Shown one piece after another: positions 3,838 to 38,151 of a stretch of DNA of 59,579 bases (position 1 is the first letter of the stretch; every line of letters begins with the position of its first letter). Source of the stretch: an uncultured Solobacterium sp. GTDB lineage: Bacteria > Bacillota_I > Bacilli_A > Erysipelotrichales > Erysipelotrichaceae. Location: positions 1 to 59,579 of the forward strand of contig URYK01000015.1 of assembly GCA_900552125.1 (NCBI GenBank), given 5' to 3'. Below the pieces are notes generated by a model. It saw nothing but the letters and a program-made list of their open reading frames with translations. It had not been told where the DNA came from and did no database searches. The translations under genes were made by a program, and so were the position numbers.

Positions 3838-3840
3838 AAG

Positions 3841-5010: not shown

Positions 5011-5019
5011 AGTTCCTCC

Positions 5020-5862
5020 TTATAATAATGAATAAACCAATTGCTGAGTATAAGGATGCTGAGGATCTTCCATAACCTGATCGGTTAAACCCTGTTCAAT
5101 AATTTCTCCATCCAACATAACAATCGTACGATCCGCTAACATTCTAATAACACCTAAGTCATGAGATACGACAATCATCGATACACCTAAATCACGCTGT
5201 ATCTTTTTAATTAAATCTAATACATTTGCCTGTACTGATAAATCCAGACCGGTTGTGACCTCATCTAGTAATAATACAGGAGGGTTATTACTTAAAGCTT
5301 TCGCAATCTGTACACGTTGCTGCATACCACCTGAAAAATTCTTAGGCTCTTCTTTCATTCGATGGGTAGGTATTTTTACTGCCTGCAGTAATTCCTCTCC
5401 ACGAGAACGCATCTCTGAGACATTTCGTTTTCCTGCCGCTATTAATTTTTCTGCGATATTTCCCATACTAGAAAAATTCATTTTTAAGCCTAAATATGGA
5501 TTTTGATATACCATACCTAGCACATGATTTCGAATATAACGCTGTTGTTGGGAAGTTAAATCAAAAATATTAGCTTCTCCATTTTTATAAGTTCTGATTG
5601 TACAGCTGCCACTTGTCACATATTGATCAAAGTATAGACACTGCATCATAGTAGATTTACCGCTACCGCTTTCTCCTACTACTCCTAAAATTTCTCCATC
5701 ATATACATCAAAGCTGATATCTCTACATGCATAGACTGTTCCACAGTTTGGACAATAATTGCCATGCAGATGTTCTGGATGTCCTTTACAATATATACAG
5801 CCATCTCCAAATTGTTTATTTAAGTTTTTCACCTGCATTAAAGGCACATCGCTAAATTGCAT
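5020..5862 (-). CDS. phnK: Phosphonate C-P lyase system protein PhnK with zinc-ribbon insert
   Basis: ABC ATPase subunit that docks on the PhnGHIJ core complex. Walker A is GVVGESGSGKST, the Q-loop is MVYQNPYLGLKM, the signature is FSGGMQQRVQIAKAL and Walker B is VLLLDEVTTGLD. Unlike E. coli PhnK, about 25 residues are inserted before the ATP-binding core: a Cys-x2-Cys-x11-Cys-x2-Cys pattern (starting at CIYC, ending at CPNC) that should form a zinc ribbon. I chose the ATG at 5862 because AAGGAGG lies eight bases upstream; the longer frame to 5883 starts upstream of that site. The start overlaps the phnJ end. Confidence 0.92.
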   Translation of the reverse strand: MQFSDVPLMQVKNLNKQFGDGCIYCKGHPEHLHGNYCPNCGTVYACRDISFDVYDGEILGVVGESGSGKSTMMQCLYFDQYVTSGSCTIRTYKNGEANIFDLTSQQQRYIRNHVLGMVYQNPYLGLKMNFSSMGNIAEKLIAAGKRNVSEMRSRGEELLQAVKIPTHRMKEEPKNFSGGMQQRVQIAKALSNNPPVLLLDEVTTGLDLSVQANVLDLIKKIQRDLGVSMIVVSHDLGVIRMLADRTIVMLDGEIIEQGLTDQVMEDPQHPYTQQLVYSLL

Positions 5863-6709
5863 TCTGTTTCCCTCCTTGTGCATTTAAACGCTCTAAACAT
5901 TGACTGGTATCATTACATTGATAACTTACACTACCATCTTCTTCATTGATGATTTCATCAAGATATACATGACTTGCCCCACATAAGCGACAGCATTTTC
6001 CTTTGAAATCTTCTTGTTCGAATGGATAATCCTCAAAGTCTAAAGATACAACCTTAGTATATGGCGGTACCGCATAGATTTTTTTCTCACGCCCTGCCCC
6101 AAGTAAAATCAAAGCTTCACTTTCCATCATCTTAGGATTATCAAATTTTGGAATAGGAGAAGGTGCCATGACATAACGATCATTTACCATTACAGGATGA
6201 TCTGCTCCCATTGTCATGCGATCAAATTTCATGATCTGTTCAAAAAGCATCAGCCATGCCCCTGTATATTCTTTTTCCGCATGTAAGATTTTTGTTTTTC
6301 TTTCACTTGGCTCATATTCACGTAAAGGTTCTGGTGTTGGTACCTGAAGAACTAGAATCTGATCTTTCTTTAAAGGAACCTCTGGGATACGATGACGAGA
6401 TTGTATCAAAGTAGCTTCACTTGTATGAATCGTCACATCTACTCCTGTTGTTGTCTGAATCAGATTTTTAATACTGATAGCATTAACACTTTCATCACTT
6501 CCCTGATCAATGACCTTTACTACATCTTCTTTTCCTACTAAAGATAAGGTTAACTGAATTCCACCAGTTCCCCAGCCTCTGGCTATCGGCATTTCTCTTG
6601 AGGCAAAAGGAACCTGATAGCCTGGAATACAAATAGCTTTTAGTGATGTTCTTCGTATTTCTCGTTTACTGCCTTCGTCAAAGAAAGCAAAATTATATTT
6701 CTTTTTCAT
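5852..6709 (-). CDS. phnJ: Alpha-D-ribose 1-methylphosphonate 5-phosphate C-P lyase PhnJ
   Basis: Radical SAM enzyme that cleaves the carbon-phosphorus bond, giving an alkane and ribose 1,2-cyclic phosphate 5-phosphate. The conserved Cys pattern is at the C-terminus: Cys240 and Cys243 (CRLC), Cys265 and Cys271 (CNDTSQC), matching Cys241/244/266/272 of E. coli, which bind the Fe-S cluster and supply the thiyl radical. The glycyl-radical region ARGWGTGG is present (about 43-50). Length 285 residues is normal. The ATG at 6709 is preferred over 6715 because AAAGGA is then at ideal spacing. Start overlaps the phnI end. Confidence 0.96.
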   Translation of the reverse strand: MKKKYNFAFFDEGSKREIRRTSLKAICIPGYQVPFASREMPIARGWGTGGIQLTLSLVGKEDVVKVIDQGSDESVNAISIKNLIQTTTGVDVTIHTSEATLIQSRHRIPEVPLKKDQILVLQVPTPEPLREYEPSERKTKILHAEKEYTGAWLMLFEQIMKFDRMTMGADHPVMVNDRYVMAPSPIPKFDNPKMMESEALILLGAGREKKIYAVPPYTKVVSLDFEDYPFEQEDFKGKCCRLCGASHVYLDEIINEEDGSVSYQCNDTSQCLERLNAQGGKQNAI

Positions 6710-7802
6710 AAGCATTTTCCTTTTTCGTTTTTCTAATACTATTTAATTTTGATTGGAAGGTTACATAATGAGGCAATTTCAAATGAGAAATAAAGCCTGT
6801 TGCTTCTACGGAATCAATATGATAAAGAACAAATTCTTCATCATTTACCGCAAAGCTTTTATCTTCACTCTCTAAACATGTGTCTAGAATACTCATCGCA
6901 ATTGCTTTTGTTTCATTTTGTCCAAATGTTAAACCATATCCAACTTTAAATTCTAATTCTTTATTTCCATCTGGATTCGTAATCGTAACTGGGATTAGAC
7001 TTTCTACCTCTGTTACTTTGATTTCTCCTATATAGTAAGAATCATCATCTGAATCCTGATGCATTGGATCCGCAATCGTTATAGGAAGCATACCAACACG
7101 TAATTCTCCAACTGTTGGATGCACGACTCCATAACCACGCAAAGAAGCATATCCTAAAGCTGTTACTGCCTGTGTCATCCCTCTGCTTAGAATCTGAAGA
7201 CGTTCACTTCGTTTTGTTGGGAAACTAAGCATTTGTTTTGTCGCATCCTTAGGAGGTGTATCATCGTTCTCTATTTCAGGAAGAAGCCCTTCTTTACGCA
7301 GATAATCACTTACCTTTGGAAGACGAAGATGATCTCTTTGGATAGTACATTCACGATGTAAAAATTCGTTAATAAATGTTTTTACCTCTTCTTCCTTTTC
7401 CTCCAGTAAATCAAAATCTAATAAACGATGTACATAGTCATAACTAGTTCCTAATATCTGCCCATCAGGGATATCTTTAAAGGCTGCCGAAATTCGTCTT
7501 TCTACTTCCATATCTTCACTATTTACGATATTAGAATAATAACTGCGAGGTAATGTAGATCGATAACTACGCAATAAGAATACTGCCTCTTCCATACTTC
7601 CCTCTGCCTGCTTAATAGCTAAAGCACATAAGGATGGATCATATAAGCTTGCTTCACTCATCACCTGATCTATCAATAAGCGCATCCCTTGTTCAATCTG
7701 TAATGTACTAGGACCTAAGCCTTGTTTTAAGCGTTCATATTTTAAACGGCGAATACTTTCATCAATTGCCTGTGCTCCACCTTTTACCGCAACATATGCC
7801 AT
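6693..7802 (-). CDS. phnI: Phosphonate C-P lyase subunit PhnI (ribose 1-phosphonate triphosphate synthase)
   Basis: Core C-P lyase subunit with nucleosidase activity; it displaces adenine from ATP with phosphonate, helped by PhnG, PhnH and PhnL. The opening MAYVAVKGGAQAI, AIKQAEGSMEEAVFLLR and GYASLRGYGVVHPTVGELRVG are hallmark PhnI segments. Length 369 residues is standard. AAAGGGG precedes the ATG and the gene starts three bases after phnH, overlapping phnJ at its end. Confidence 0.96.
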   Translation of the reverse strand: MAYVAVKGGAQAIDESIRRLKYERLKQGLGPSTLQIEQGMRLLIDQVMSEASLYDPSLCALAIKQAEGSMEEAVFLLRSYRSTLPRSYYSNIVNSEDMEVERRISAAFKDIPDGQILGTSYDYVHRLLDFDLLEEKEEEVKTFINEFLHRECTIQRDHLRLPKVSDYLRKEGLLPEIENDDTPPKDATKQMLSFPTKRSERLQILSRGMTQAVTALGYASLRGYGVVHPTVGELRVGMLPITIADPMHQDSDDDSYYIGEIKVTEVESLIPVTITNPDGNKELEFKVGYGLTFGQNETKAIAMSILDTCLESEDKSFAVNDEEFVLYHIDSVEATGFISHLKLPHYVTFQSKLNSIRKTKKENAYEKEI

Positions 7803-7805
7803 AGT

Positions 7806-8384
7806 TTATCCCCTTTCTATCTGTGTCGTCCTAGGTAATGCGACACAATTTGCGTTCGCATCAACGAGAATCATATCAAAGCCTAGCGGAAATTCTTCAT
7901 TCACAAGTTTTCTTTTGTCCACCCACTCTTCCTGTAAAGGAAGTGAGATTGTCTTTTTATCTTTAATTCCAGGTCCAGATAATGTCCACGCATCTCCACC
8001 ATACAAATCATCACATTCCACTAACATCGTTGCGCCTAAATGCGGATCTTCTAATGTTCCTACCTGAATCTGATCCATAACTTCTGTCAAATGATCAAGA
8101 TTCTTTTTTGTCACGATGACATGAGCTGCATCTGTTTGTTTTACTTGTTCACAATATGTTAAACGTGCAATCGTTAGAGCCAGTTCTTCATCATCTACTA
8201 CATGAAAACTAGTGTCCGCATCAAGAAGCATATAAAACAATACCTGCATACCTTTTACACAAGATAGCGGTAAATCAAGTTTATCCGCCTCTTCCTTTAA
8301 ACTAACAATCTCTCCTGGATAGGCGAATGCATGCACGATTTTACGATATGCATGCTGAATATCAAATACCATATCAAAGTTCAT
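7806..8384 (-). CDS. phnH: Phosphonate C-P lyase subunit PhnH
   Basis: Non-catalytic subunit of the PhnGHIJ core, 192 residues. The opening with AYRKIVHAFAYPGEIVSL and the later GATMLVECDDLYGG and LSGPGIKDKKTISL are recognisable PhnH segments. AAGGAG precedes the ATG; 11 bases separate it from phnG. It is short for the family but complete. Confidence 0.93.
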   Translation of the reverse strand: MNFDMVFDIQHAYRKIVHAFAYPGEIVSLKEEADKLDLPLSCVKGMQVLFYMLLDADTSFHVVDDEELALTIARLTYCEQVKQTDAAHVIVTKKNLDHLTEVMDQIQVGTLEDPHLGATMLVECDDLYGGDAWTLSGPGIKDKKTISLPLQEEWVDKRKLVNEEFPLGFDMILVDANANCVALPRTTQIERG

Positions 8385-8395
8385 AGATACTCTCC

Positions 8396-8818
8396 TTATA
8401 CATCCATCGTCTCAAAATTAACTCTTGTCTTTAATATCTGATTAACATATTTCTTATGCTGTTCTTCCTGCATTTCTTTTTGTTTTACAAGTTCTTTTTC
8501 TAAATCTTCAACTCCCGCAAGCTCTGCGTTACATGCCGCATCTAAGATTGCTAAGTCATAAGATTTTTCTAACTCATTTCCTTGAATAATTCCAATACCA
8601 ATCACTCCTTGGCATTCTACTCTTGTTTCACTGACCAAAACTTCACCTAGATAAAATAGTGTGTTCTGTGCACTTTCTCGCATTCGAATCATTGTCAATG
8701 CATTTTTTGGTTCTTCAATTACATGAAATTCATTTTGCTGTTTAAAGTATTCTGCCCATTGTCTAAGAAACTCTTTTTCACAATGAACCAGGATACGAGT
8801 TCTTTCTTTTCGTATCAT
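8396..8818 (-). CDS. phnG: Phosphonate C-P lyase subunit PhnG
   Basis: Small core subunit (140 residues) of the C-P lyase complex that joins PhnI in the first step. The central ESAQNTLFYLGEVLVSETRVECQGVIGIGIIQGNELEKSYDLAILDAA region matches the family's nucleotide/complex core (TLFYLGEVL and GxGxxxGN equivalents), and the C-terminus ends TRVNFETMDV. It is the first gene of the operon, with AGGAGG ahead of the ATG and about 150 bases of leader holding a dyad (8919-8938). Confidence 0.92.
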   Translation of the reverse strand: MIRKERTRILVHCEKEFLRQWAEYFKQQNEFHVIEEPKNALTMIRMRESAQNTLFYLGEVLVSETRVECQGVIGIGIIQGNELEKSYDLAILDAACNAELAGVEDLEKELVKQKEMQEEQHKKYVNQILKTRVNFETMDV

Positions 8819-20221: not shown

Positions 20222-21076
20222 TTACTCTGTCACAATACTTCTTTGTTTATATAAAGTAATAAAAATTTCGAATAATAATGCTACCACAAAGATTGCCAAT
20301 ACACATAAACCTACTGTTCCATATCCTCCACTTCTTTGATAAGAGTTTAAGATTGAACCAATAGTGCCTGGTACTCCAACCGCTGGTCCTATAATAACAG
20401 CAGCCGCAAAGTTCATTTCACTTCGCATCGCAATCCAGGAAATCATTTTAGTAAATGAAACTGGAATAATTGCACTCCATATGATCTGCCACCATTTAGC
20501 TCCTGTAGCTTTCATTGCCTCAATTGCTCCGGCATCTACTTCTTCAAATGCTTCTGAATATGATTTAATGAAGTAGGCAACACTATGAAATGACATTCCG
20601 ACAATTGCAGTTGTGGCAGTTAATCCAAAACCTGAAATAAAGATTAATACCCAAATAATCGTTGGTACTGCACGAATCAATCCTGCAAAAGATCGAACTA
20701 ACATACAAATAACAGGATGAGATAAATTTCTTGCGGCTAATAAACCAAATAGAATTCCAATAACTGCACCAATAATTGTTGTGACAAATGCTAAAGCGAT
20801 TGTATTAACTAGACTTGTGAATACTTCTATTGCGGTTGAAGAAGTAACTGTGGAAAAGTCTAAGAAACTCATCAGATATGTTTGTATTAAAGCTGGACGT
20901 ACCTGATCCCATTTATACTCACACACAAAGAATATAAAATAGAAAAATACAAGTGCAAATACTAAAATAACTCCTTTAGTTAAATAGCTTGATGTATCTT
21001 TTTTCTTTAATACATAACGACCTTTTTTCTTTCTTTCTAATGCTGATACATTATTTGTTAAAATTGCTGTTTCCAT
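20222..21076 (-). CDS. phnE: Phosphonate ABC transporter permease PhnE (second copy)
   Basis: Binding-protein-dependent permease, 284 residues, about six membrane segments after a basic cytoplasmic N-terminus (KKKGRYVLKKK). The EAA loop is GAIEAMKATGAKWWQIIWSAIIP, characteristic of PhnE. It pairs with the other PhnE as a heterodimeric channel for phosphonate. Its ATG overlaps the stop of the first phnE (TAATG). Confidence 0.92.
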   Translation of the reverse strand: METAILTNNVSALERKKKGRYVLKKKDTSSYLTKGVILVFALVFFYFIFFVCEYKWDQVRPALIQTYLMSFLDFSTVTSSTAIEVFTSLVNTIALAFVTTIIGAVIGILFGLLAARNLSHPVICMLVRSFAGLIRAVPTIIWVLIFISGFGLTATTAIVGMSFHSVAYFIKSYSEAFEEVDAGAIEAMKATGAKWWQIIWSAIIPVSFTKMISWIAMRSEMNFAAAVIIGPAVGVPGTIGSILNSYQRSGGYGTVGLCVLAIFVVALLFEIFITLYKQRSIVTE

Positions 21077-21864
21077 TACATGATCCTCTTTCTAATTTGT
21101 GATGATATCTGGTCTGTTAGAATAACAGTAATAACTACTAATAAAATACAAGAAGCCATTAGCTGATACCCCTGATATCCTACATATAATCCACCTTGAT
21201 AAATACTCATTAAGTAACCAATTCCTCCACCTGCTAACATTCCTACAACAGTAGCACTTCTTATGTTATTTTCCGCAGAGTATAACGTCCAGGAAATTAA
21301 GGAAGGTAACGTTTCTGGAATGACTGCATGAATGATGATCTGCCAATAGCTTGCCCCTGTTGCCTCTAATGCTTCCATACAATTGGCGTTTGTTTCATCA
21401 ATTGAATCCGCAAAAGAACGAGTTAGGAATCCATAGGATATTATACAAAGAACTAAAAATCCTAAGAAATCTCCATACCATAACAACGGCAATAATAAGA
21501 CAGCCCATACAGCTTCAGGTATATTTCTAGTTAGTGACGCAAAAGCACGAATAATGTATTTTAATACTCGAAATCTTGCGGTCTTAGAGGAAATTGCTAA
21601 AGCAGAGAAGAATGACAATATCATTCCTACAAAAGCTCCGGCAATAGAAATTATAATTGTTACCCATAATTGATATAGCTGTTCCCCTATTTCAGAAAAA
21701 TCAATTGGAAGATACGTTTTCGTAAAACGAACGACAGATACTTGAAAGTTAGTTAAAATCAAACCCCAATCAATTTCTAAGCGCCAGGTACATAACATCA
21801 TCAATATCACAACAATCATTAAGGCTAAAGCCCATGTTATTCTTTTTCTTTTAAAATAACTCAT
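21076..21864 (-). CDS. phnE: Phosphonate ABC transporter permease PhnE (first copy)
   Basis: 262-residue permease with about six membrane segments. EAA loop: CMEALEATGASYWQIIIHAVIPETLPSL. The two PhnE proteins are homologous but diverged, as in other two-permease phosphonate systems. The ATG overlaps the phnC stop (ATGA), showing translational coupling. Confidence 0.92.
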   Translation of the reverse strand: MSYFKRKRITWALALMIVVILMMLCTWRLEIDWGLILTNFQVSVVRFTKTYLPIDFSEIGEQLYQLWVTIIISIAGAFVGMILSFFSALAISSKTARFRVLKYIIRAFASLTRNIPEAVWAVLLLPLLWYGDFLGFLVLCIISYGFLTRSFADSIDETNANCMEALEATGASYWQIIIHAVIPETLPSLISWTLYSAENNIRSATVVGMLAGGGIGYLMSIYQGGLYVGYQGYQLMASCILLVVITVILTDQISSQIRKRIM

Positions 21865-22649
21865 GCTTTCACCTCATCTACTTTACTGATCAATTCATCC
21901 ATACTTACACCATAAATTTTTTCAATTGTAGCACTATCCAAATCCTGTGGTTTTCCATTAAATACAATTTCCCCCTTATGCATCCCAATAATACGGTCAG
22001 AATAATGCATTGCCACATCTACTTGATGAAGATTTACAATACAAGGAATTTTCATCTGCTTTGTGATATCTTTTAAATATTCCATAATAACTTTACTAGA
22101 CTGAGGGTCTAACGAAGCAATTGGTTCATCACATAACACCATTTTAGGATTTTGTATCAACGCTCTTGCGATACCTACACGCTGTTTTTGCCCACCTGAT
22201 AAGTCACAGCACTTATCATAAAGTTTATCCCCTAGTCCAAGCATTTCTAATAATTTAGCTGCCTGTTCTATATCTTTTTGATCATATAAACCTAGCGTAG
22301 TTTTCCATGTTGGATAATAGCCTAAGCGTCCATGTAAAACATTTTCCAATACATTTAAGCGGTATACTAGATTATAGTGCTGAAAAATCATTCCTATATT
22401 TCTTCGGATATCACGAATCTGCTTTTTGTTGGCAGATGTTACTTCATAATTTAAGAATTGAATACTTCCACTTGTCACATCAATCATTCGATTGATACAT
22501 CTCAATAATGTACTCTTACCTGATCCACTAGGACCAATGATGGAAATTAATTCTCCTTCATTTACAGTAAAGCTAGCATTCTGTAATGCTTTTACCGCAT
22601 TATCTTCATATGTTTTAGAAACGTTCTGTACACGCAAAATTTCACTCAT
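21861..22649 (-). CDS. phnC: Phosphonate ABC transporter ATPase PhnC
   Basis: 262-residue ATPase. Walker A GPSGSGKST, Q-loop MIFQHYNLVYRLNVLENVLHGRLG (a PhnC hallmark), signature LSGGQKQRVGIARAL, Walker B MVLCDEPIASLDP and switch His in IVNLHQVDVA. AGGTGG precedes the ATG. A hairpin with T-run separates it from phnD. Confidence 0.95.
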   Translation of the reverse strand: MSEILRVQNVSKTYEDNAVKALQNASFTVNEGELISIIGPSGSGKSTLLRCINRMIDVTSGSIQFLNYEVTSANKKQIRDIRRNIGMIFQHYNLVYRLNVLENVLHGRLGYYPTWKTTLGLYDQKDIEQAAKLLEMLGLGDKLYDKCCDLSGGQKQRVGIARALIQNPKMVLCDEPIASLDPQSSKVIMEYLKDITKQMKIPCIVNLHQVDVAMHYSDRIIGMHKGEIVFNGKPQDLDSATIEKIYGVSMDELISKVDEVKA

Positions 22650-22766
22650 TTCTTTACCACCTTTTCTTTTTATTTCACAGAAACATTGTACCTTGTGAAA
22701 AGATGAAAAGTGTTAATACCATGTAAATCCTTCGTAATCCTTTCTTTAAAAACTTTTGGTAAATAT

Positions 22767-22797
22767 AAAAAATACACCTCGATAATACGAGATGTAT
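22767..22797 (-). terminator. Hairpin with T-run between phnD and phnC
   Basis: ATACACCTCG pairs with CGAGATGTAT (one mismatch) six bases after the phnD stop, followed on the minus strand by six T. As phnC-E-E have no obvious promoter of their own, this is likely a partial terminator that sets binding protein above transporter levels. Confidence 0.65.
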
Positions 22798-22802
22798 GAA
22801 TA

Positions 22803-23783
22803 TTACTGTTCTTTATACATATCCAGAATAAACTGATAGCGAGATAGATCTGTTTCAAAGAACTTATAATTTGAAGGATCATCTTCTGCTTCAAAGAAGA
22901 ATCCATTTTCTTTATCAAAGAAATTTTCATTAGCTGCATTTTCTGGAGTTAAGTTTACAAAATGATCTACAATTTTATTAATTTCATCTTCAGTTAAAGC
23001 TGTTGTATTTACCCAAAGTGGTCCATTAGGCACAAACTGTGTATCTAAGATTTCTAATTCATCTTTATATTCATAGCCATATGTACAGCAGAATGCACCT
23101 GCATAAACTTTATCATTTACTAATAGCTGTACAGCACCCTGATGGTCTCCACCATTTTGTACTTCAGAGAAGATACCGCCATCTTCTTCACTCTTAATAT
23201 TAATCTGATCTTTTTCAGTAACTGTCTGATCTCCATCTGGTCCAAATAAATTCCAGAATGTAGTTGTTGGAACTAGACAGCCGGAAGTTGATGTTGGTGA
23301 TACAAATCCAAAGGATTTACCTTTTAAAGATTTTAATTTTTCTTCTGTTGTCATTCCTTCAAAATCAGAGGCATGTTTTTTATTTGTTGCGATATAAGCA
23401 TTGTATCCGCTCTTATCTGGATCTCCTTCAGGTCCATAGGATAGTATTGGAAGAATGTTGTTATCTTTCATATAAGATGCCGCAAATGTTCCGCCGCTTT
23501 CCCAAGCAATCTGCGCAGTTCCTGATACCATAGCTTCCGTTACAGCATTGTAGTTATCTAGTTTCGCAATCTTAACATCATAAGAATCACCTAATGCTGC
23601 TTGAACCTCATCTCTCAACATGTTAAACGCATTTTTACTTCTTTCTGCATTTTCATCCTCATTTGGCAAGAAAGCAATTGTAATTTCTTTTTTATCCCCT
23701 GCACCATCATTACTTGAACTACATCCAGCTAACATGGTACATGCTAACATTCCTGCCATACATAAATTCAACAATTTTTTCAT
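22803..23783 (-). CDS. phnD: Phosphonate ABC transporter substrate-binding lipoprotein PhnD
   Basis: 326 residues with a lipoprotein signal (hydrophobic 3-18, lipobox LAGC, Cys at 21), so it is anchored outside the membrane. The mature part has ITIAFLPNEDENAERSKNAF, MVSGTAQIAWESGGTF, FGFVSPTSTSGCLVP and FCCTYGYEYKDE, matching PhnD/PhnX-type periplasmic-binding proteins. The STSG segment forms the phosphonate pocket in relatives. AAGGAG lies before the ATG. Confidence 0.93.
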   Translation of the reverse strand: MKKLLNLCMAGMLACTMLAGCSSSNDGAGDKKEITIAFLPNEDENAERSKNAFNMLRDEVQAALGDSYDVKIAKLDNYNAVTEAMVSGTAQIAWESGGTFAASYMKDNNILPILSYGPEGDPDKSGYNAYIATNKKHASDFEGMTTEEKLKSLKGKSFGFVSPTSTSGCLVPTTTFWNLFGPDGDQTVTEKDQINIKSEEDGGIFSEVQNGGDHQGAVQLLVNDKVYAGAFCCTYGYEYKDELEILDTQFVPNGPLWVNTTALTEDEINKIVDHFVNLTPENAANENFFDKENGFFFEAEDDPSNYKFFETDLSRYQFILDMYKEQ

Positions 23784-27493: not shown

Positions 27494-30400
27494 TTACATA
27501 TCTTCTTTAGCGATAGCTTCTAATCTCTTACGACGACGCATAGCATCTTTCTTAGTTTTTTCAAACATTTCGTATGCTGTTTCACCTTTTACTTTTGGTA
27601 ATTGGCTATAACGAGTTTCTGTCATCATAAAGTCTAACATCTTATCGTAATCTGGTGTTTTAGAATCGATTGTTAGAGGAGTTTCTTTTCTTGGATCATA
27701 ACGGTATAGATCGAAGTAACCACATTCAACAGCTTTAGCCTGAGTTCTCTGGTGGTTAGCTAGACCTCCCTTAATACCATGTTCAGCACATGGAGAGTAA
27801 GCCAAGATTAGAGATGGTCCATCATAGCTTTCAGCTTCTTTGATAGCTTTTAGAGTCTGGTTTTTGTTTGCACCCATAGCGATAGATGCTACATAAACAT
27901 GACCATAAGCCATAGCAATCTGTCCTAAGTCTTTCTTAGCAGTTGTTTTACCACCAGCAGCGAACTTAGCGATAGATGCAGCCTGACTAGATTTAGAAGA
28001 CTGTCCACCTGTGTTAGAGTAAACTTCAGTATCAAGTACTAATACGTTTACATTCAAGTCGTTAGCTAATACGTGGTCTAATCCACCGTAGCCGATGTCA
28101 TAAGCCCATCCGTCTCCACCAACGATCCAGATAGATTTAGAGATTAAGTCTTGTTCTGCAAGTTCTTTTACAGCTTCAATATCAGATTTAGCAGCCAATT
28201 CTTTGATTGTTGGAGCTACTTCTCTTTCAGCTTCACGATCTCCGTGAACTTCAATATATTTAGCGAATGCTTCTTTCAATGCAGGTTCAACATTTTCCAT
28301 GTTGTCTTCCATTGTTTTTAGAATTCTAGCTTCTTTGTAGTTCTGAGATAATGCCATACCATATCCGAATTCAGCATTGTCTTCGAATAATGAGTTAGCC
28401 CAAGCAACACCTTCACCATTTTTATCATTTACGAATGGAGTAGATGGAGTTGAAGAACAGTAGATCATTGAACATCCAGTTGCATTTGCTACTAGCATGT
28501 CACGTCCGAATAACTGAGAAACTAATTTGTAGTATGGAGTTTCCCCACATCCTGGACAAGAACCACTTACTTCGAAGTAAGGCATTAAGAACTGAGATCC
28601 CTTAACAGTATCTGTTGGGAAGAATTCAGATTTGTATTCAGTATGTTTGAATAGGTAATCTGCCAATGGTTCTTCATCAAGTTTTTCGTTGATATCAACC
28701 ATTTCAAGAGCTTTGTTACCAGCTTTACCTGGACATTCAACCGCACATAGACCACAACCTACACAGTTTGCAGGAGTAACCTGGATACGATATTTCATGT
28801 TTTCTACACCTTTACCCATAGCAGGAATTGTTTCGAATTCCATAGGTGCATTAGCAACTTCTTCATCAGTTAATAAGAATGGACGAATTGTTGCATGTGG
28901 ACACACGAAGCTACAGATTCCACACTGGATACAGTTTTCTGGATGCCAAGTAGGTACCTGAACAGCGATTGTACGTTTTTCTTCGAATGCTACGTTGTTG
29001 CGGATAGAACCATCTAATAAGAAGTCACCAGCAAATGCGCTAACTGGCATATCGTAACCTTCAAGACCGTTAATTACAGCTACATGGTTATCGAAGTATT
29101 CATCACCAGTTAATTTACGAGTTGCATCGTATGGAAGTTCTGCCCAAGCTGGATCTACTTCAACGCTTTCAATACCAGCTTTACCAGCATCGATAGCTTT
29201 GTAGTTCAACTGAACAACTGCATCACCTTTTTTAGAGTAAGATTTTTTAGCAGCAGCTTTCATTAAATCAACTGCAGTATCATAAGGCATGATCTGTTCA
29301 TTCAATGCGAAGAATGCTGACTGTAGAATTGTGTTTGTTCTACGTCCCATACCGATTTCCTGAGCAATCTTAGTTGCATTGATGATGTACAATTTAGCTT
29401 TTTTCTTAGCTAACTGTGCTTTCATACGGTTAGGCATATGTTCAACGATTTCTTCTTTAGAGAATGTTGTATTTAATAAGAATGTTCCACCTTCTTTGAT
29501 GTCTTTAGCCATGTCATATTTGAACATGTAAGCATCTAATGAACAAGAAATGAAGTCTGCATTTCCAATGTAGTAAGTAGAACGGATTGGAGAGTTACCG
29601 AAACGTAAGTGAGAACGAGTAACCCCACCAGCTTTTTTAGAGTCATATGCAAAGTAAGCCTGTGCATACTGATCTGTGTTATCACCGATGATCTTAACTG
29701 TTGATTTGTTTGCAGATACTGTACCATCAGATCCTAATCCCCAGAATAAGCAAGAAGTATAATCTGCAGGAACGTGGAAGTTTTTATCTGCTTCAAGACT
29801 CAAGTTAGTTACATCATCCACAATACCGATTGTGAAGCTGTTTTTCATTTCGTCTTTCTTCAATTCATCAAATACGGCTTTGATGTGGTAAGGCTGAGTA
29901 TCTTTAGAACCTAAACCATAACGTCCACCGATGATTTCGATGTCTTTATCTTTCAATGCAGAAAGTACATCTAAGTATAGAGGTTCTCCCATTGAACCAG
30001 TTTCTTTAGTACGATCTAGTACTGCAATTTTCTTAACTGTTTCTGGTAATACAGCTAATAAATATTTAACAGAGAATGGACGATATAAGTGAACTTTCAC
30101 CATACCAACTTTTTCTCCAGCAGCAGTTAGTGCATCGATTGTTTCTTTTGCAGCTTCTGTAACAGAACCCATTGCAACGATTACACGTTCTGCGTCACTC
30201 GCACCATAATAAGTGAATGGAGCATATTCACGACCAGTGATTTCACTGATTTTCTTCATATAATCCGCAACGATATCAGGAATAGCATCATAGTGTTTAT
30301 TTCTAGCTTCTACACCCTGGAAGAAGATATCGTCGTTTTCAGCACCACCACGAGTAACTGGGTTAGTGTGTGGGTTTAAAGCATTCTTACGGAATTTCGC

Positions 30401-31000
30401 AAGAGCTTCCTTATCAATTAAATCTTTGAATACTTCTGTATCCATTACCTCGATTTTCTGAATTTCGTGAGATGTACGGAATCCATCAAAGAAGTGAATG
30501 AAAGGAACAGATCCTTTGATTGCAGCTAAGTGTGCAACACCAGCTAAATCCATAGCTTCCTGAACTGAGTGAGAAGCTAACATACATACACCGCTCTGAC
30601 GAACAGCGTATACGTCTTCGTGATCACCGAAGATGTTTAATGCTCTAGTTGCAAGTGCACGAGCTGCTACATGGATAACCCCTGGCAAGCATTCCCCTAC
30701 CATCTTATAGATGTTTGGAATCATCAACAATAGCCCCTGAGAAGCTGTAAATGTTGTTGCCAGTGTTCCTGCCTGTAAAGCACCGTGAACAGCACCAGCT
30801 GCACCACCTTCAGATTGAAGTTCCGCAACTTTCACAACACTGTCAAAAATATTTTTGCGACCCTGTGTAGCCCACTGATCTACAACTTCAGCCATTGGTG
30901 AAGATGGAGTGATTGGGTAAATCGCAGATAGCTCGGTAAACGCATAGGCACAATGTGCAGCAGCAGTATTACCGTCCATTGACATAAATTTCTTAGTCAT
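27494..31000 (-). CDS. nifJ: Pyruvate:ferredoxin (flavodoxin) oxidoreductase
   Basis: Homodimeric PFOR: pyruvate + CoA + oxidised ferredoxin to acetyl-CoA + CO2, a key anaerobic step. At 1168 residues all domains are fused: domain I (AYPITPSSPMAE), the gamma domain (near 420-640), two [4Fe-4S] ferredoxin motifs (CIQCGICSFVC then CVGCGLCAVEC), an additional cluster site with GSCPGCGETPY, and the thiamine site VGGDGWAYDIGYGGLDH with NTGGQ. AAGGAGG seven bases before the ATG at 31000 fixes the start; the frame to 31018 starts before that site. Codon use is biased to highly expressed codons. Confidence 0.97.
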   Translation of the reverse strand: MTKKFMSMDGNTAAAHCAYAFTELSAIYPITPSSPMAEVVDQWATQGRKNIFDSVVKVAELQSEGGAAGAVHGALQAGTLATTFTASQGLLLMIPNIYKMVGECLPGVIHVAARALATRALNIFGDHEDVYAVRQSGVCMLASHSVQEAMDLAGVAHLAAIKGSVPFIHFFDGFRTSHEIQKIEVMDTEVFKDLIDKEALAKFRKNALNPHTNPVTRGGAENDDIFFQGVEARNKHYDAIPDIVADYMKKISEITGREYAPFTYYGASDAERVIVAMGSVTEAAKETIDALTAAGEKVGMVKVHLYRPFSVKYLLAVLPETVKKIAVLDRTKETGSMGEPLYLDVLSALKDKDIEIIGGRYGLGSKDTQPYHIKAVFDELKKDEMKNSFTIGIVDDVTNLSLEADKNFHVPADYTSCLFWGLGSDGTVSANKSTVKIIGDNTDQYAQAYFAYDSKKAGGVTRSHLRFGNSPIRSTYYIGNADFISCSLDAYMFKYDMAKDIKEGGTFLLNTTFSKEEIVEHMPNRMKAQLAKKKAKLYIINATKIAQEIGMGRRTNTILQSAFFALNEQIMPYDTAVDLMKAAAKKSYSKKGDAVVQLNYKAIDAGKAGIESVEVDPAWAELPYDATRKLTGDEYFDNHVAVINGLEGYDMPVSAFAGDFLLDGSIRNNVAFEEKRTIAVQVPTWHPENCIQCGICSFVCPHATIRPFLLTDEEVANAPMEFETIPAMGKGVENMKYRIQVTPANCVGCGLCAVECPGKAGNKALEMVDINEKLDEEPLADYLFKHTEYKSEFFPTDTVKGSQFLMPYFEVSGSCPGCGETPYYKLVSQLFGRDMLVANATGCSMIYCSSTPSTPFVNDKNGEGVAWANSLFEDNAEFGYGMALSQNYKEARILKTMEDNMENVEPALKEAFAKYIEVHGDREAEREVAPTIKELAAKSDIEAVKELAEQDLISKSIWIVGGDGWAYDIGYGGLDHVLANDLNVNVLVLDTEVYSNTGGQSSKSSQAASIAKFAAGGKTTAKKDLGQIAMAYGHVYVASIAMGANKNQTLKAIKEAESYDGPSLILAYSPCAEHGIKGGLANHQRTQAKAVECGYFDLYRYDPRKETPLTIDSKTPDYDKMLDFMMTETRYSQLPKVKGETAYEMFEKTKKDAMRRRKRLEAIAKEDM

Positions 31001-31031
31001 TTGTTTTCCTCCTTGCATAACTTACCCTTTT

Positions 31032-31172: not shown

Positions 31173-31202
31173 AAAAAAAAGACCTATTTTTCAAGGTCTT
31201 TT
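31173..31202 (-). terminator. Terminator of the giant repeat gene
   Basis: AAAAGACCT and AGGTCTTTT form a stem right after the stop codon, followed by eight T on the minus strand. Confidence 0.85.
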
Positions 31203-31206
31203 CTCA

Positions 31207-34200
31207 TTAGTCGATAATGATTTTTACACTCCCCGCAGAAGCAGAAGAGGCAACGATCGGATTCACTACTTCTACTGTATTTCTTCTTCCGCTATTAATA
31301 TCCAATATCCCTTGTGTACTTTCCTCTCCATTCACAATAAATGTTGGATTCATTTCTCCGCTCGTCTCATGAAACGTATAGCGTCCATAAGGTAAATTCG
31401 TCAATGTGTAAGAAAAATCATTATCTTTATCTAAAGCTACGGATTGTTCAAATGAAGGAGAAATAACCTGAACAATATAAGAATTTCGAATATCCGGTTT
31501 TCTTAGATTGCCAAATGCATCTTTCATCAGTTTTCCCAAAACAATCTGTCCGTTTTCTACATTACCCAGTACATTGATAATTCCTACGACAACTGTCATA
31601 CCAGCTGAAATTTTAAATACTGCTTCATCCATTAACTCTGGTGAATTTACTAAATACTGTATTTTATTCTGAGAAGACAATTCTTCAATACGATAGGTTC
31701 CGCTAGGATATGTCGTAAGTGACTGATGCCATTCATTATCCTGTCTTAACTCATAGACTTCATCAAAACCATTCCCGCTGATTCGAAAAGAGAATACTTC
31801 TTCAGACTGCGGAGGAACATAATTGCCATTCATATCTAAAACATATTTAAATACTTCAATTGTATTTTGATTTACTTGTAATTCATTTAAAATATCCACC
31901 GTGTTTTCCGCATTCTCATCCATCTCAACAACCGCCTGACTTACTTCTTCGCCACCATTTATACGATATGTTGAGATATATTGTGCATCACTGATTTCAC
32001 GAACACGATAAGTTCCATTAGGCAGATCATTGAATTCATATTGAAAATTATTTCTGCCATTCAATTCTATGACCCTTGTTACATCCATATTATATACTTC
32101 GATACGATAACGATCTCCATCTGCTGGTGTAATTAAGGTTCCATCCGCCTGTTTACTATACTTTGTAATGCGTAAGCTTCCATACTGCATTTTTGTTCCA
32201 TTTATCATATGCACATCATGATGATTATTGCTTACATCTACACTTGCTGATGAAGTTTCTTCACCATCATCAATGTGATATGTCACTTCATAATCTGACC
32301 CCTGTTCAGATATACGATAAGTTCCATTTTCTAAATCATGCAGTGTCGTTTTAAAATTATTTCGATCCTGTAAAACGACACTCGTATGCATGTCATCACT
32401 TTCCACATCAACAATAAATCTTTCATTTTCCGGTGTAGTCAGCTCACCATTATTATTTTTCAGATGTTTCATAAGTGTAATTGAACCTCGTGTCTCACAA
32501 TCATTTTGAATAATTAAAACTTCATTATCATTATGGTCCACATGAATATTGCCATAGGCTACTTCACTGCCTTGATTGATACAGTATGTCACATTCGAAT
32601 TATTCTCTTCATGAACCGCATACCAGCCATCTTCTATATTATGAAATACTGCCTGCCAATTATTTTCTTTCTGTAATACACACGTATTCTGATAATCTGG
32701 TCTTGAAATATGAATATGACTTTGACTAGAATCCTCAGGTACTGTTAATGTTCCGTCTTTTTTACGTACCTGTTTACGAATTGTTAGACTTCCTAGTGCA
32801 GATTCTTCTTCTAATATAACCTGGACCTGATGCGTATCCTGTTTTATTTGAATTACCGCCCAATCTACCTCACTGCCCTGATTGATGCAGTATTTGCATG
32901 CATTTTCTTTTGTCACTTCATCAATCACATAATATCCGTCTAATAAATTATCAATCATACATGAGAATTGATTACTTTGATCCAGTGTAAAAACCTCATT
33001 ATATCCTGGACGTGAAATATGCATTTGCCATACATCAGATGCTTTTGGTTCTTGAAGCTCTCCCTTATTTCTTATAAAAGCATGTAACTGAATTTTCCCT
33101 TGTCCTGTACTTTCTTCTCTTTGAGCTTCCTGATTAGCTCTACCTAGGATTTGTACCTGATGCATAGAATCCTGAATATGAACGATAGCACAATCTACCT
33201 GTGATCCTCCATCAATGATATACGTATCCTCTTCATCTAATGCATCAATTACATACATACCATCACGCAGATTCGAAATCACAGCGCTATATTTATTCTC
33301 AGGTGTTAACATGACAACTTCATTATAGCCGATGGAAGAGATATGAATGCGATACTCCCCTTGCATCGCTTTTTTCCATAATCCCTGTTCATCTTCTAGA
33401 TAATGATGAAGTACGATACTTCCTCTGTTTTCCTGTTGTGAAACGATATTAATTGTATTGACATTCTTCAATACCTGTACCATTCCTCTTTCTTTTGCAC
33501 TGGCATTATTCACCACATAGTGTGAGGAAGTTCGTTCATTTTCCTCTGCGATTTCATACCAGCCATCTCTTAGATTTACAACACTGGCATGAAACTGATT
33601 CGCTTTATTTAACAGAACTCTGCTTGTATCACTCTCTCCCTTAATACTCACCCAATAGCCTTCTTCATCTGTCGGCTGATGGTAGTTCCCCTGTTCATCT
33701 TGAACTAGTCTGCATATTTCAATACAGCCTTTTTCCTGATGTTCTTTTTCATAAAGGACAATAACCTGTGCGGTATCATCTTCAATTCTAACATGTCCAT
33801 GCATAGTTTCCTGTTTCCCATTAATTATAAAGGATACTTCTTTATCCTGATTTGTGATTTCATAATTCCCGAAAGGTAAAGAAGTCACATGTTTTTTCCA
33901 ATTATTTTCTTCATTTAAAGCTACTGTCTGATGATAATTATCCCCTCTGATATGCATTACCAACTCTACATCTTTTTCCGGCTGTTTTAAACAATCACAG
34001 CTTTGTTTCTTTAGATATGCGGATAATAAGATACTGCCTTTCTGTTTTGGTTTTTGATATAACATGCGCATATGAAGATCATGGCGCAGTGTAAAGGAAG
34101 AGGAAGCCGGTTCATGATTTCCCGTATAATAAGAAACCTGCTGTTCTTGATTCGATTGTTTAATTTCATAGTCGCCAAAAGGAAGTTCTTCCATCACGTG

Positions 34201-37200
34201 CCAGCGATTGTTTTTATTAAATAATAAGGTTCTCTGAATACGATTTCCTATGATATCTATTTCAAACTTCTGTGTATCATCCATCTGTTGAATTTCTTCA
34301 CCACTTACCATATCTGCATATAGATGAAGCTGAGCCATTGCATCATAGGCATTTAATACTCGCACTTCAACATGATCTTGCATCAGTTCAAAGCTGCCAT
34401 GCTCCCTTGGTTCTTCATCATTTATCTGATAACGTACATCATAATCATTCATTTCGCATATTTCATATTTCCCAGGTAATTGGTTTTGTAAATGGACACA
34501 CCAATCATTCTGATGATCAAGTACTACTTCCTGATATTCTTTATCTTTATATAGTCGAATTGTATAACTATTATCCTTATCTGGTAAGCTTTGTTGGCCA
34601 TACTGATCTTCCATATACTTACGAATTGTAATAGAACCTTTAGCTTCCTGCACAACCACAGCTCTTACATGAATACATTCATCTTTCAGTTCTACACATA
34701 CATCATTTTCAAAGACACAGTCTTCAATTTCAAAACGCAATGTCTGTCCAACCCCCTGTAATACATAGGAACCAGCTAATAAGTCACATAAATCATACGT
34801 GAAATCATTCTGATCATGCAGACAGATTATTTCTGTATTTTGTTTATTGGTTACTTCAATCTTTACTTCTTCATCTTCTAATGGATCTCGTCTTTGACTA
34901 TTTTCCTCAAACTGTGCAGTAAAATGGATACTTCCATTTCCTTTTGGTGTTTGAATCATTGTCACACAAACATCTTCATCCTGAATATCTGCCACTGCCT
35001 TACTGTATGGCATGCCATTGATGAGCCAGCTAACCGTCATGTCCTGCTCATCTCTACTCTGGATTTCATAATGTCCTTGTGGCAGATCATATAAACGAAT
35101 ACAGAAGTCATTTTGTGAATTTAGCTCCACCTGTTTATAAAAGGTATCACTTGTGATCATTACCCCAAAGCTCTGTGACATATGCGGCACACCTAAGTTA
35201 CCACAGTCATCTTTAACTTTTGCCTCTAGCATCATGCAGCCATAACGTTCTTCTAGATTTAAAATTTTAATCTGTTTAAAGCTGCCATCATATAAGAAAT
35301 ATGCTGAGTCCATCTCTTCCCCATTAACATCATAGATAACTCGATTACTATTCAATTCTTTTACTTCATAATGCTGGTTTTTCAAATGATTAAAACTAAT
35401 ACAGAAATCATTCCCCGCATGAAGCTCATAAATTTCATGACAGCCTTTCCCCTTTAGTAGAAATTTAAAACAGGCATCATTAGGTGGCATGACAAACTGA
35501 TTCCCCTGCTGGATTCTTTTCTCTACTACAACACAACTGTTTTCTTTTGATAAATTCACAATATCCACATATACATCTTTTTGTGCTAATGTAAAACAGC
35601 CACGCTCACTTGGTTTTCCCTGGATATGATAAGTGACATGACAATTACTATCCAGTTCAGTAATTTCATATTGCCCTTCAGATAAATCATCAAAATATAT
35701 ACAGAAATCATTTCTCGCACATAGTTTATAAGTCTGCTTAATAGATTGTCCCTGTAATAAGAATCGGAATTCATCCTGAAGATTAGGCATTTCAAGATTG
35801 CCATAAGCATCTTCTACATATTTCGTTACAAATACACTTCCACTGCAATTAGTTTCTTCATTAATTATGAATACTTCTACATCATTTTGTGTTAATTCCA
35901 CATTGCCAAAGCTACGATCTTGTCCTTGAATGCGATAATGTATCTTATATCCAAAATTATCTTTTTGAATAATACGATAATGTCCGGGATCTAAATGATC
36001 TAATACCACACACCAGTTATTTTGCGCATGCAGGCTTACCTGTTCACTGACATCTCTTCCCTCAATTAAAACATCAATTACCATATTTCTTGATGGATAC
36101 TGTAATACCTCTTCGCAAGTTAAAATCTTCGCATTTAGCTTCAGCATACCGCTATGTGTAAAATGATTCAAGATACATACTTCCTGATTATTCTGATCCA
36201 TACAGACAATCGCATCATGCATTTGTTTTTGATTCACAAAATAGGAAACTTCCTGTCCATACGCATCTTTTTCATAGATTCGATATTCATTTTCCTCTAA
36301 TCCTTCTAATAGTACACAGAAGTTATTACTAGCTTTTAAAGTATATACACCTCTAAAATCTGAGCTTTCTACATATACTTCAAATTCTTTATGACTAGCA
36401 GGTTTTACCCATTGTTTCCCCCGTGTTTCTTCAAATTTATCAATTTTTAAGATTCCGCAGTTCTGTTTTACAACACGATTAATAATTCGCACTTCGTGTT
36501 CCTTGCAATTATCAATGATAAATCGTCCAGACTTCATCTCTTTTCCATGATTCAACTGATATGTGACCTGATATTCTTCGTCACATGAATCTTCTTTTAT
36601 TTCATAGCTTCCAAAACGAAGGTTATCAATAAGAATTGTCCAATCATTTTCCGCATGAAGTTCAAAACATTGTTTACTGAAAAAAGAACGTAATGTAACA
36701 TGGAAACATTGATCCTTATTTGGACGAATCAGTTCACCACAGTCATTTCTTAGATATTTACTTACACGAAGGGCTCCTGCATTGCGTTCTTCATGAATAA
36801 TGGAAATGCAGTAAGAATCATCATCCTGCAGCTGTACACAGGCACTCGTTCTTTCTTTCCCATCATTAATGATATAGCTAGTAGTGAAATCATCATTACA
36901 GCTAACATCTTCAATACAATATTCACCTTTACAGATATTGGCAATATCTACACAAAAATTATTATTGGCATTTAAATTAAATACTTCCTGTTTCCCACAC
37001 CCGCAAACCATGACCTGAAACTGCATATCTTCATTAGGTTTTTGAATACAGCCATTACAATCTCGTACGTAAGCACAGATTCTTAATGGAGAAAATACAT
37101 CACATTCTTCAAACTGTATTTCTTCCAGCATAACAACTGATGAACGACAGCCTTCCATAATTTCCACATGGGCATACCACTGTTCTTTTCTTCCATTCAC

Positions 37201-37902
37201 CATATAACAGATACTATCTTCTTTACTTTTGTCTAAAACACTCACATCATAAAATCCTGGATTTAAACCACACAATACATTTTGATATTCGTTATCTTCA
37301 CACAAAACAACGATTTGTTCATCATCTTCTGAACGTACACGTACACTATATTCTCCATGCATTGGTTTTGAAAGCTGTCCATTGCTTGTTCGCTGATACA
37401 GTTCTAAGCTTAATTCTGTTTCAGCCATTTGGACTGTGCTGTCTTCCTTCATAAAATAATCTTCCTTTTCTTCCCATCGATCATTCGATAATTCATGATG
37501 AATGATATGAATGGCGTGATGTGTCTGATTATCAAAATCAACACTCGCATATTCCTCATTAACTTTCTGCCCATCAACAATATAGCTTATTGACAACCCT
37601 TCACTAGATGTTAGCTGTTGTCCTTGATCATCTGTTTCCACAACCAAATATTCTGTTGGCTGTAAATCAAATATCGTGATAGTTCCTATACCTGTGGATG
37701 GATTAATTTCAACATCGAATTGACGACATTCATTTTGCGAGCGGCAGACCTTGATATGACGCATTCTCTTTGTAAATCCTGCTTCACCTGTCCGCATTCT
37801 TTCTTCGATTGTAATATCCATGCGATAATCACATGGCTGTACCGTTTCCAGAAGGCTGATAGGCAATAAGCGATGCAAGACGTTTCTTATGCGTTTGCTC
37901 AT
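31207..37902 (-). CDS. Giant tandem-repeat protein with prealbumin-like (SpaA/Cna-B-like) domains
   Basis: 2231 residues made of about 21 repeats of roughly 103 residues. Typical unit: G-S-L-x-I-x-K, D-x-x-G-x-L-x-x-P, F-x-V, L-x-x-x-N-(D/N)-(F/W), L-x-x-G-x-Y-x-I-x-E, Y-x-I-N-G and V-x-I-x-N near its end. This resembles prealbumin-like fold domains of pilins and Cna-B proteins, where Lys, Glu and Asn form isopeptide bonds; many units keep all three. The first unit (about 25-135) is diverged. There is no signal peptide, membrane segment or sortase motif. Cys is common in units 2-10 (N-D-F-C-I) and rare after. AAAGGAGG precedes the ATG, with a SigmaK-like promoter match upstream. Monocistronic. 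I infer a structural role, perhaps in a spore layer; a mis-targeted surface protein is less likely. Confidence 0.75.
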   Translation of the reverse strand: MSKRIRNVLHRLLPISLLETVQPCDYRMDITIEERMRTGEAGFTKRMRHIKVCRSQNECRQFDVEINPSTGIGTITIFDLQPTEYLVVETDDQGQQLTSSEGLSISYIVDGQKVNEEYASVDFDNQTHHAIHIIHHELSNDRWEEKEDYFMKEDSTVQMAETELSLELYQRTSNGQLSKPMHGEYSVRVRSEDDEQIVVLCEDNEYQNVLCGLNPGFYDVSVLDKSKEDSICYMVNGRKEQWYAHVEIMEGCRSSVVMLEEIQFEECDVFSPLRICAYVRDCNGCIQKPNEDMQFQVMVCGCGKQEVFNLNANNNFCVDIANICKGEYCIEDVSCNDDFTTSYIINDGKERTSACVQLQDDDSYCISIIHEERNAGALRVSKYLRNDCGELIRPNKDQCFHVTLRSFFSKQCFELHAENDWTILIDNLRFGSYEIKEDSCDEEYQVTYQLNHGKEMKSGRFIIDNCKEHEVRIINRVVKQNCGILKIDKFEETRGKQWVKPASHKEFEVYVESSDFRGVYTLKASNNFCVLLEGLEENEYRIYEKDAYGQEVSYFVNQKQMHDAIVCMDQNNQEVCILNHFTHSGMLKLNAKILTCEEVLQYPSRNMVIDVLIEGRDVSEQVSLHAQNNWCVVLDHLDPGHYRIIQKDNFGYKIHYRIQGQDRSFGNVELTQNDVEVFIINEETNCSGSVFVTKYVEDAYGNLEMPNLQDEFRFLLQGQSIKQTYKLCARNDFCIYFDDLSEGQYEITELDSNCHVTYHIQGKPSERGCFTLAQKDVYVDIVNLSKENSCVVVEKRIQQGNQFVMPPNDACFKFLLKGKGCHEIYELHAGNDFCISFNHLKNQHYEVKELNSNRVIYDVNGEEMDSAYFLYDGSFKQIKILNLEERYGCMMLEAKVKDDCGNLGVPHMSQSFGVMITSDTFYKQVELNSQNDFCIRLYDLPQGHYEIQSRDEQDMTVSWLINGMPYSKAVADIQDEDVCVTMIQTPKGNGSIHFTAQFEENSQRRDPLEDEEVKIEVTNKQNTEIICLHDQNDFTYDLCDLLAGSYVLQGVGQTLRFEIEDCVFENDVCVELKDECIHVRAVVVQEAKGSITIRKYMEDQYGQQSLPDKDNSYTIRLYKDKEYQEVVLDHQNDWCVHLQNQLPGKYEICEMNDYDVRYQINDEEPREHGSFELMQDHVEVRVLNAYDAMAQLHLYADMVSGEEIQQMDDTQKFEIDIIGNRIQRTLLFNKNNRWHVMEELPFGDYEIKQSNQEQQVSYYTGNHEPASSSFTLRHDLHMRMLYQKPKQKGSILLSAYLKKQSCDCLKQPEKDVELVMHIRGDNYHQTVALNEENNWKKHVTSLPFGNYEITNQDKEVSFIINGKQETMHGHVRIEDDTAQVIVLYEKEHQEKGCIEICRLVQDEQGNYHQPTDEEGYWVSIKGESDTSRVLLNKANQFHASVVNLRDGWYEIAEENERTSSHYVVNNASAKERGMVQVLKNVNTINIVSQQENRGSIVLHHYLEDEQGLWKKAMQGEYRIHISSIGYNEVVMLTPENKYSAVISNLRDGMYVIDALDEEDTYIIDGGSQVDCAIVHIQDSMHQVQILGRANQEAQREESTGQGKIQLHAFIRNKGELQEPKASDVWQMHISRPGYNEVFTLDQSNQFSCMIDNLLDGYYVIDEVTKENACKYCINQGSEVDWAVIQIKQDTHQVQVILEEESALGSLTIRKQVRKKDGTLTVPEDSSQSHIHISRPDYQNTCVLQKENNWQAVFHNIEDGWYAVHEENNSNVTYCINQGSEVAYGNIHVDHNDNEVLIIQNDCETRGSITLMKHLKNNNGELTTPENERFIVDVESDDMHTSVVLQDRNNFKTTLHDLENGTYRISEQGSDYEVTYHIDDGEETSSASVDVSNNHHDVHMINGTKMQYGSLRITKYSKQADGTLITPADGDRYRIEVYNMDVTRVIELNGRNNFQYEFNDLPNGTYRVREISDAQYISTYRINGGEEVSQAVVEMDENAENTVDILNELQVNQNTIEVFKYVLDMNGNYVPPQSEEVFSFRISGNGFDEVYELRQDNEWHQSLTTYPSGTYRIEELSSQNKIQYLVNSPELMDEAVFKISAGMTVVVGIINVLGNVENGQIVLGKLMKDAFGNLRKPDIRNSYIVQVISPSFEQSVALDKDNDFSYTLTNLPYGRYTFHETSGEMNPTFIVNGEESTQGILDINSGRRNTVEVVNPIVASSASAGSVKIIID

Positions 37903-37947
37903 CTTTATCCTCCTTTTTCATATAAGCGATTCATTTCTTATACATTC

Positions 37948-37974
37948 TAGTATATGAGCCTACATCAGATTTGT
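37948..37974 (-). promoter_or_regulatory. SigmaK-like promoter match ahead of the giant gene
   Basis: On the minus strand AC (37973-37974), 16 bases, then CATATACTA (37948-37956) fits the published B. subtilis SigmaK pattern (AC, 16-17 bases, CATAnnnTA). It also carries TATACT, a fair sigma-A -10, but the hexamer at 17 bases is a poor -35. Start codon lies about 45 bases downstream. Confidence 0.35.
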
Positions 37975-38006: not shown

Positions 38007-38031
38007 AAAAAAACCGTTAATTTAATAACGG
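38007..38031 (-). terminator. Terminator after the 44-residue gene
   Basis: CCGTTA and TAACGG pair around ATTTAA, with seven T following on the minus strand. The stem includes the stop codon of the small gene. Confidence 0.85.
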
Positions 38032-38151
38032 CTCTAAACGAATCATCATATAAGGCTCCCCCTCTTTGCGTACCATGTGAATTCGCATAATAATATACGT
38101 ATTTTCACTATGAAGCGTAAGAATCATTGGGCTTTGATATTCAATATACAT
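38017..38151 (-). CDS. Small 44-residue protein, unknown function
   Basis: A short open frame with AAGGTG five bases before the ATG, ending in a terminator stem. The protein opens MYIEYQSPMILTLHS and continues with YIIMRIHMVRKEGEPYMMIRLEPLLN; Met-rich, slightly basic, beta-prone, no membrane segment. It lies 35 bases after the membrane protein gene in the same direction, forming the last gene of that unit. I recognise no family. Its real ribosome site and placement between a gene and a terminator argue that it is translated. Confidence 0.6.
   Translation of the reverse strand: MYIEYQSPMILTLHSENTYIIMRIHMVRKEGEPYMMIRLEPLLN

Follow-up and report, generated by a model that had tools for sequence, protein, structure and literature searches.

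Among described proteins, the SpaA/CnaB pilins and adhesins, such as the major pilin of Streptococcus pyogenes (3b2m), the TIE protein of Bacillus anthracis (6fwv) and PitA of Streptococcus oralis (7vcr), resemble most closely in build the protein reported here, and excerpts of PMC8619143 state that pilins use Lys-Asn isopeptide bonds. Two spore-surface systems are also relevant. The Ena of Bacillus cereus are covalently stabilised β-sandwich blocks, jelly-roll subunits that assemble helically and are linked by disulfides (excerpts of PMC8619143), while the Cys-rich exosporium proteins CdeC of Clostridioides difficile and CsxA of Clostridium sporogenes self-assemble, CdeC running at 42 kDa as a monomer (excerpts of PMC7677010 and PMC4942563). 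We analysed a giant repeat gene in a stretch of 59,579 nucleotides (hereafter the window; contig URYK01000015.1 of an uncultured Solobacterium sp.), located at 31207–37902 on the minus strand and encoding 2231 residues with 21 CnaB/SpaA-like units. The giant protein is like the pilins in predicted unit fold and tandem layout and unlike them in having 21 units per chain, a Cys-rich first half, a tie to spore formers, and no signal peptide, LPxTG or pilin motif that we could find. Where Ena is an assembly of subunits, it is a single chain whose CnaB-like units are predicted to carry isopeptide bonds internally; none of the 12 Pfam matches of the window protein up to E 1 is named Ena, although which Pfam model covers Ena was not established. 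With CdeC, which is far smaller, and CsxA it shares many Cys and presence in spore formers. For Ena as for CdeC and CsxA, the comparison presumes a spore location that we infer for the giant protein. Altogether, we consider it probable that the gene encodes a self-crosslinking structural protein of the spore surface that is made in the mother cell.

A prior reading of this DNA from its letters alone (the sequence-only reading) had proposed about 21 SpaA/CnaB-type repeats, and this number holds. An iterated repeat profile, built from the window protein and the 27 homologues of a protein search, finds 21 units, of which 20 are strong (43.9–100.9 bits) and one, the divergent first unit (residues 28–135; 37498–37821, minus strand), is weak (22.8 bits). 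The units measure 92–108 residues and the linkers mostly 5–10, two being longer (14 and 26); the same profile counts 20–24 units in 26 full-length homologues and 13 in the truncated P0004. Our homologue searches, which admit only proteins of 0.55–1.75 times the query length, returned 27 homologues among 4335 candidates with the protein (weakest 1174 bits) and 46 among 1794 with the profile (weakest 1764 bits). Since no weaker matches follow behind the weakest homologues, the family is sharply bounded within the admitted length range. The combined set comprises 48 homologues, 47 of them 2144–2728 residues long, the exception being P0004 (1422 residues, end lost). Most are 30–44% identical to the window protein and yet keep its length, hence the open reading frame (ORF), which the sequence-only reading had given without a strand, is no chance frame. 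That reading knew of no named family; indeed no NCBIfam model scores above its cut-off for the window protein, but a family does exist, with 48 homologues, one of them labelled 'MSCRAMM family protein' by its source.

Both ends of the protein recur in the family. A leader of the type 'MSK...SFLET' is found in many members and corresponds to residues 1–27 of the window protein (37822–37902, minus strand). A C-terminal motif of the type (I/V)K(I/V)V(I/L)E is present in its strict form in 43 of 49 proteins and as near variants in five, P0004 being truncated; in the window protein the tail, residues 2215–2231 (31210–31260, minus strand), ends in SVKIIID. The orthologues at loci L003 and L004 have other starts and terminate in RLVL and KLIL. 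The family profile also gives weak second matches in open frames of 436, 1433 and 857 residues (G010, C11:94430–95437; G003, C21 and C22), perhaps other SpaA-type proteins.

The units are not of an unknown kind: they are predicted with high confidence to fold as β-sandwiches like the CnaB domains of pilins, and they carry the residues that form intramolecular isopeptide bonds there. The whole window protein scores 34.5 bits with Pfam SpaA (cut-off 23.1) with no single stretch passing alone, and among 108 tandem pairs compared with Pfam at 1e-3, eight match SpaA and six Cna_B. The unit model reaches a predicted local distance difference test (pLDDT) score of 96.1, and its top Foldseek matches are pilins and CnaB adhesins (best 3.5e-8). 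A profile match to 6fwv_A (6.1e-6) aligns the first-strand Lys and the Glu of Y-x-I-x-E, with the Asn within one residue; phmmer with the whole window protein gave no match in the PDB.

Over 28 sequences we found 611 units, 27 of them unreadable; of the 584 readable ones, 468 retain the Lys-Glu-Asn triad. Loss of Lys goes with loss of Glu: the coupling of the two (phi 0.88) ranks first of 171 column pairs, the next reaching 0.61 and the median being 0.08. Judged by these residues, triad-bearing units may each form an intramolecular Lys-Asn isopeptide bond, which the Glu would catalyse and which would lock the unit. The window protein (P0001) and its 99% identical twin P0003 have the triad in 9 of 21 units, and the other 25 full-length homologues examined have it in 15–20; the low count is a relaxation in one lineage.

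The distribution of Cys divides the chain. There are 61 Cys in the window protein and 61–116 per protein across the 28 sequences, denser in the first half in all 49 proteins, and the last 400 residues hold none in the window protein and 0–3 in other full-length members. Units 1–17 (residues 28–1799; 32506–37821, minus strand) form a Cys-rich part in which units 4, 5, 7, 8 and 11 carry the triad, and units 18–21 (residues 1806–2214; 31261–32487, minus strand) are devoid of Cys and triad-complete in all four. Because of this asymmetry, the N-terminal part may be anchored and the Cys-free part may lie outside. The best correlation in Cys co-occurrence is a weak 0.45, on which we claim no disulfide pairing. 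At the opposite end, a model of units 20–21 with the tail (47 rows) reaches pLDDT 93.5, falling to 80 and 69 in the last two blocks, and shows the tail as coil. An end that is conserved yet loose suggests a docking peptide; we also considered a donor-strand role, which a coil in a monomer model neither shows nor excludes.

The link to sporulation comes from the distribution of the gene and from its promoter. We scored the best two candidates in each of 196 genomes of the order and obtained 14 strong family matches (E below 1e-160), one intermediate match (G009) and 19 genomes with weak matches only. spoIVA is present in 61 of the 196 genomes, in all 14 strong carriers and not in G009; this co-occurrence has a Fisher p of 2.6e-8, uncorrected for kinship, and supports a link to spore formers. 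The sigma-K model scores 277–297 bits in 13 of the 14 strong carriers, just below its cut-off of 298.65, and misses in G002; it reaches 239 bits in G009 and at most 72.9 bits in G011–G015 and G017, which lack the giant gene. The SpoIIID and YhcN/YlaJ models were uninformative as extra spore markers in these genomes. According to excerpts of PMC8340488, the Erysipelotrichaceae comprise spore formers and former spore formers, and the carrier Longicatena caecimuris was first isolated from ethanol-treated faeces and was not recovered after ethanol exposure in a test.

Upstream of the start, the element CATATA(A/C)T is present in all 14 strong carriers and in the window. In seven of these 15 promoters (window, G001, G002, G010, G016, G113 and G158) it is preceded at 16 bp by AC; the G158 promoter was read by eye, since its −10 is followed by T. 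The window site, AC-N16-CATATACTA at 37948–37974 on the minus strand, is the core of a block conserved at the orthologues and compares with the description in excerpts of PMC3789822, where C. difficile sigma E and sigma K have very similar −10 elements, the −35 is AC for sigma K and ATA for sigma E, and one sigK promoter combines AC with the −10 CATATAAT. CATATA(A/C)T occurs within 130 bp of 12 of 12 family genes (L034 and L081 being one genome) versus 2 of 100 other ORFs. The longer block GGGCTCATATANTAGAATGT, searched with up to two mismatches, is found exactly once, at the giant gene, in 10 of 15 genomes (it is missing from G003, G004, G113, G158 and G009), and its reversed control is never found. 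By its resemblance to these promoters, CATATA(A/C)T is probably the −10 of a mother-cell sigma factor of E/K type, in keeping with the mother-cell link suggested by the sequence-only reading.

The gene also appears to form its own transcription unit, as that reading had it. Its ATG start is preceded by the ribosome binding site AGGAGG (37909–37914, minus strand), the promoter site gives no match of sigma-70 type in a scan of the window, and a terminator-like hairpin at 38010–38035 (minus strand) closes the preceding unit. Downstream, the terminator scan flags nothing; the segment 31166–31212 nevertheless folds (z −4.0) as a hairpin with a U run at its end, placing a terminator-like structure at 31174–31205 on the minus strand.

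Could the protein instead be a vegetative cell-surface adhesin or something pilin-like, exported along a route that we do not recognise or released by lysis? The likeness of its fold and repeats to those of MSCRAMMs and surface pilins would suggest so, and the name given to one member points the same way, but we consider this unlikely. We measured signal peptides as the highest hydropathy of any 12 consecutive residues among the N-terminal 45, and four proteins encoded in the window that are secreted or lie in the membrane served as controls: the window protein scores 1.18 and the 48 homologues at most 1.58, compared with 1.98–3.34 for the controls, so that none of the 49 proteins has a signal peptide at control level. 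An LPxTG sorting signal is found in 0 of 49 proteins, the pilin motif, which we take to be W-x3-V-x-V-Y-P-K, in 0 of 28 sequences, and a sortase in none of the ten neighbourhood genes scanned. The absence of signal peptide and LPxTG asserted by the sequence-only reading is thereby confirmed, and a sortase pilin or LPxTG adhesin is rejected. Its further claim, that no transmembrane helix is present, holds for the model and not for the score: the most hydrophobic 19 residues, at residue 2094, reach 1.94, above three of the four controls and above the usual membrane-helix threshold of 1.6, but they lie in unit 20, and since this unit is modelled as β strands, no membrane helix is predicted there. 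Furthermore, a content of 61–116 Cys would be unusual for a secreted Gram-positive adhesin, and all strong carriers have spoIVA.

We favour a spore-surface protein, which the mother cell would synthesise at a late stage of sporulation and deposit on the forespore from the cytoplasm; because deposition starts from the cytoplasm, a signal peptide would be unnecessary. The layer would be the coat or the exosporium, and the structure possibly a fibre. The 21 CnaB-like units would make up a rod whose Cys-rich N-terminal part is fixed in the layer by disulfides, and whose Cys-free, triad-complete C-terminal units and conserved tail would reach outward or dock to a partner. The same promoter, the same co-occurrence and the same missing export signal are compatible with a cytoplasmic scaffold or assembly template that serves sporulation in the mother cell and is absent from the finished spore. 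A self-crosslinking, Cys-rich design would, however, suit a lasting structure over a transient template, hence this alternative also appears improbable to us; the observations are better matched by a structural spore-surface protein than by a scaffold free in the cytoplasm.

More tentatively, and with the odds somewhat against it, the family might represent a new class of spore-surface fibre, in which one giant mother-cell chain has isopeptide-hardened units, a disulfide anchor at its Cys-rich end and a C-terminal peptide docking into a partner or neighbour. If true, a principle known from sortase-built pili on the cell surface, hardening by isopeptide bonds, would be transferred to the spore. 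If bond formation takes place in the cytoplasm of the mother cell, self-crosslinking through isopeptide bonds would extend beyond exported proteins, and these units would naturally lend themselves as covalent locks inside cells. Gut Erysipelotrichaceae are believed to pass between hosts as spores, whose surface becomes testable through a family that is discrete and gene-sized and makes a clear biochemical prediction, a mass loss of about 17 Da for each bonded unit. In the excerpts of the literature on spore coat, exosporium, appendages and isopeptide bonds available to us, we found no description of the giant protein or of any CnaB-type protein on Erysipelotrichaceae spores.

Several observations weigh against a spore-surface role. 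The 14 carriers are related, hence their co-occurrence with spoIVA does not amount to 14 independent events. As 47 of the 61 spoIVA-positive genomes lack a strong match, the giant gene cannot be counted among general spore genes; spoIVA and a sigma-K-like factor (267 and 259 bits) are both present in G007 and G008, from which it is absent. The SpoIIID model (TIGR02844) matches in none of 23 genomes (G001–G018, G063, G078, G092, G113 and G158), some of them spoIVA-positive, although a Bacillus subtilis control matches. With regard to the promoter, 8 of 15 lack the AC −35, and the bare sigma-K pattern is not enriched, neither in the window (3 occurrences versus 3.4 expected) nor in four genomes (31 versus 23 in the control). 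Among 30 loci with this pattern, four are the giant gene, nine precede another ORF, none of these nine being a recognisable spore gene, and 17 precede none. We have accordingly rejected the pattern as a genome-wide detector of sigma-K promoters, and the sigma assignment rests on conservation at the giant gene and not on the pattern. As to the fold, UGGT and further β-sandwich chains appear at similar Z, so that the pilin matches are not exclusive, two-domain Foldseek TM-scores are low (0.2–0.4), and the window protein itself keeps the triad in only nine of its 21 units.

Less probable still is a cytoplasmic protein unrelated to spores whose match with spore formers reflects the ancestry of one clade: the kinship of the carriers, the many spoIVA-positive genomes without a strong match, the frequent position beside the metabolic gene nifJ and a −10 that also reads TATA(A/C)T, as for a housekeeping sigma factor, are in its favour, but all 15 promoters retain the initial C of CATATA(A/C)T, which is dispensable in a housekeeping −10, the window promoter has no sigma-70 match, and the only intermediate match without spoIVA is a short diverged relative in G009. 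A phage protein was rejected, as 50,697 phage records gave no tblastn match at 1e-5.

In the window, the neighbour of the giant gene is a pyruvate:ferredoxin oxidoreductase of nifJ type (27494–31018, minus strand), named by eye and by its relatives, whose best segment shares 94% identity with the Amedibacillus dolichus protein and 93% with the L. caecimuris one. A direct scan of genome contigs with the window protein found no relatives, and the locus was reached via nifJ instead; a plasmid search with nifJ DNA gave no match. In seven of the nine strong carriers for which we fetched the nifJ locus, the giant gene occupies the position immediately upstream of nifJ that it also has in the window: A. 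dolichus (L001), L. caecimuris (L018), Merdibacter massiliensis (L003), L002, L004, L005 and L034. The fetched nifJ stretches of the other two, L006 (G006) and L041 (G018), have no match and the gene lies elsewhere in these genomes, hence its locus has moved at least once. The relative in G009 (L014, 8053–9907) is also upstream of nifJ and consists of a 507-residue ORF with four units behind a 108-residue ORF. It is either a short version or the product of gene decay. G009 has no spoIVA match, yet sigma E/K-like factors are present.

Between the giant gene and the upstream membrane-protein gene, the window holds an ORF of 44 residues (38017–38151, minus strand), and similar small ORFs occupy the same place in L001, L002 and L018, with none seen in L005 and L034. 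An amidase at 111–869 (minus strand) matches the spore protein CwlD below threshold (118 bits, cut-off 221.6). The window further contains PhnM within an apparent phosphonate C-P lyase operon (3214–8818, minus strand) and a phosphonate-binding ABC transporter set (20222–23783, minus strand); the other genes of these phosphonate regions were named by eye.

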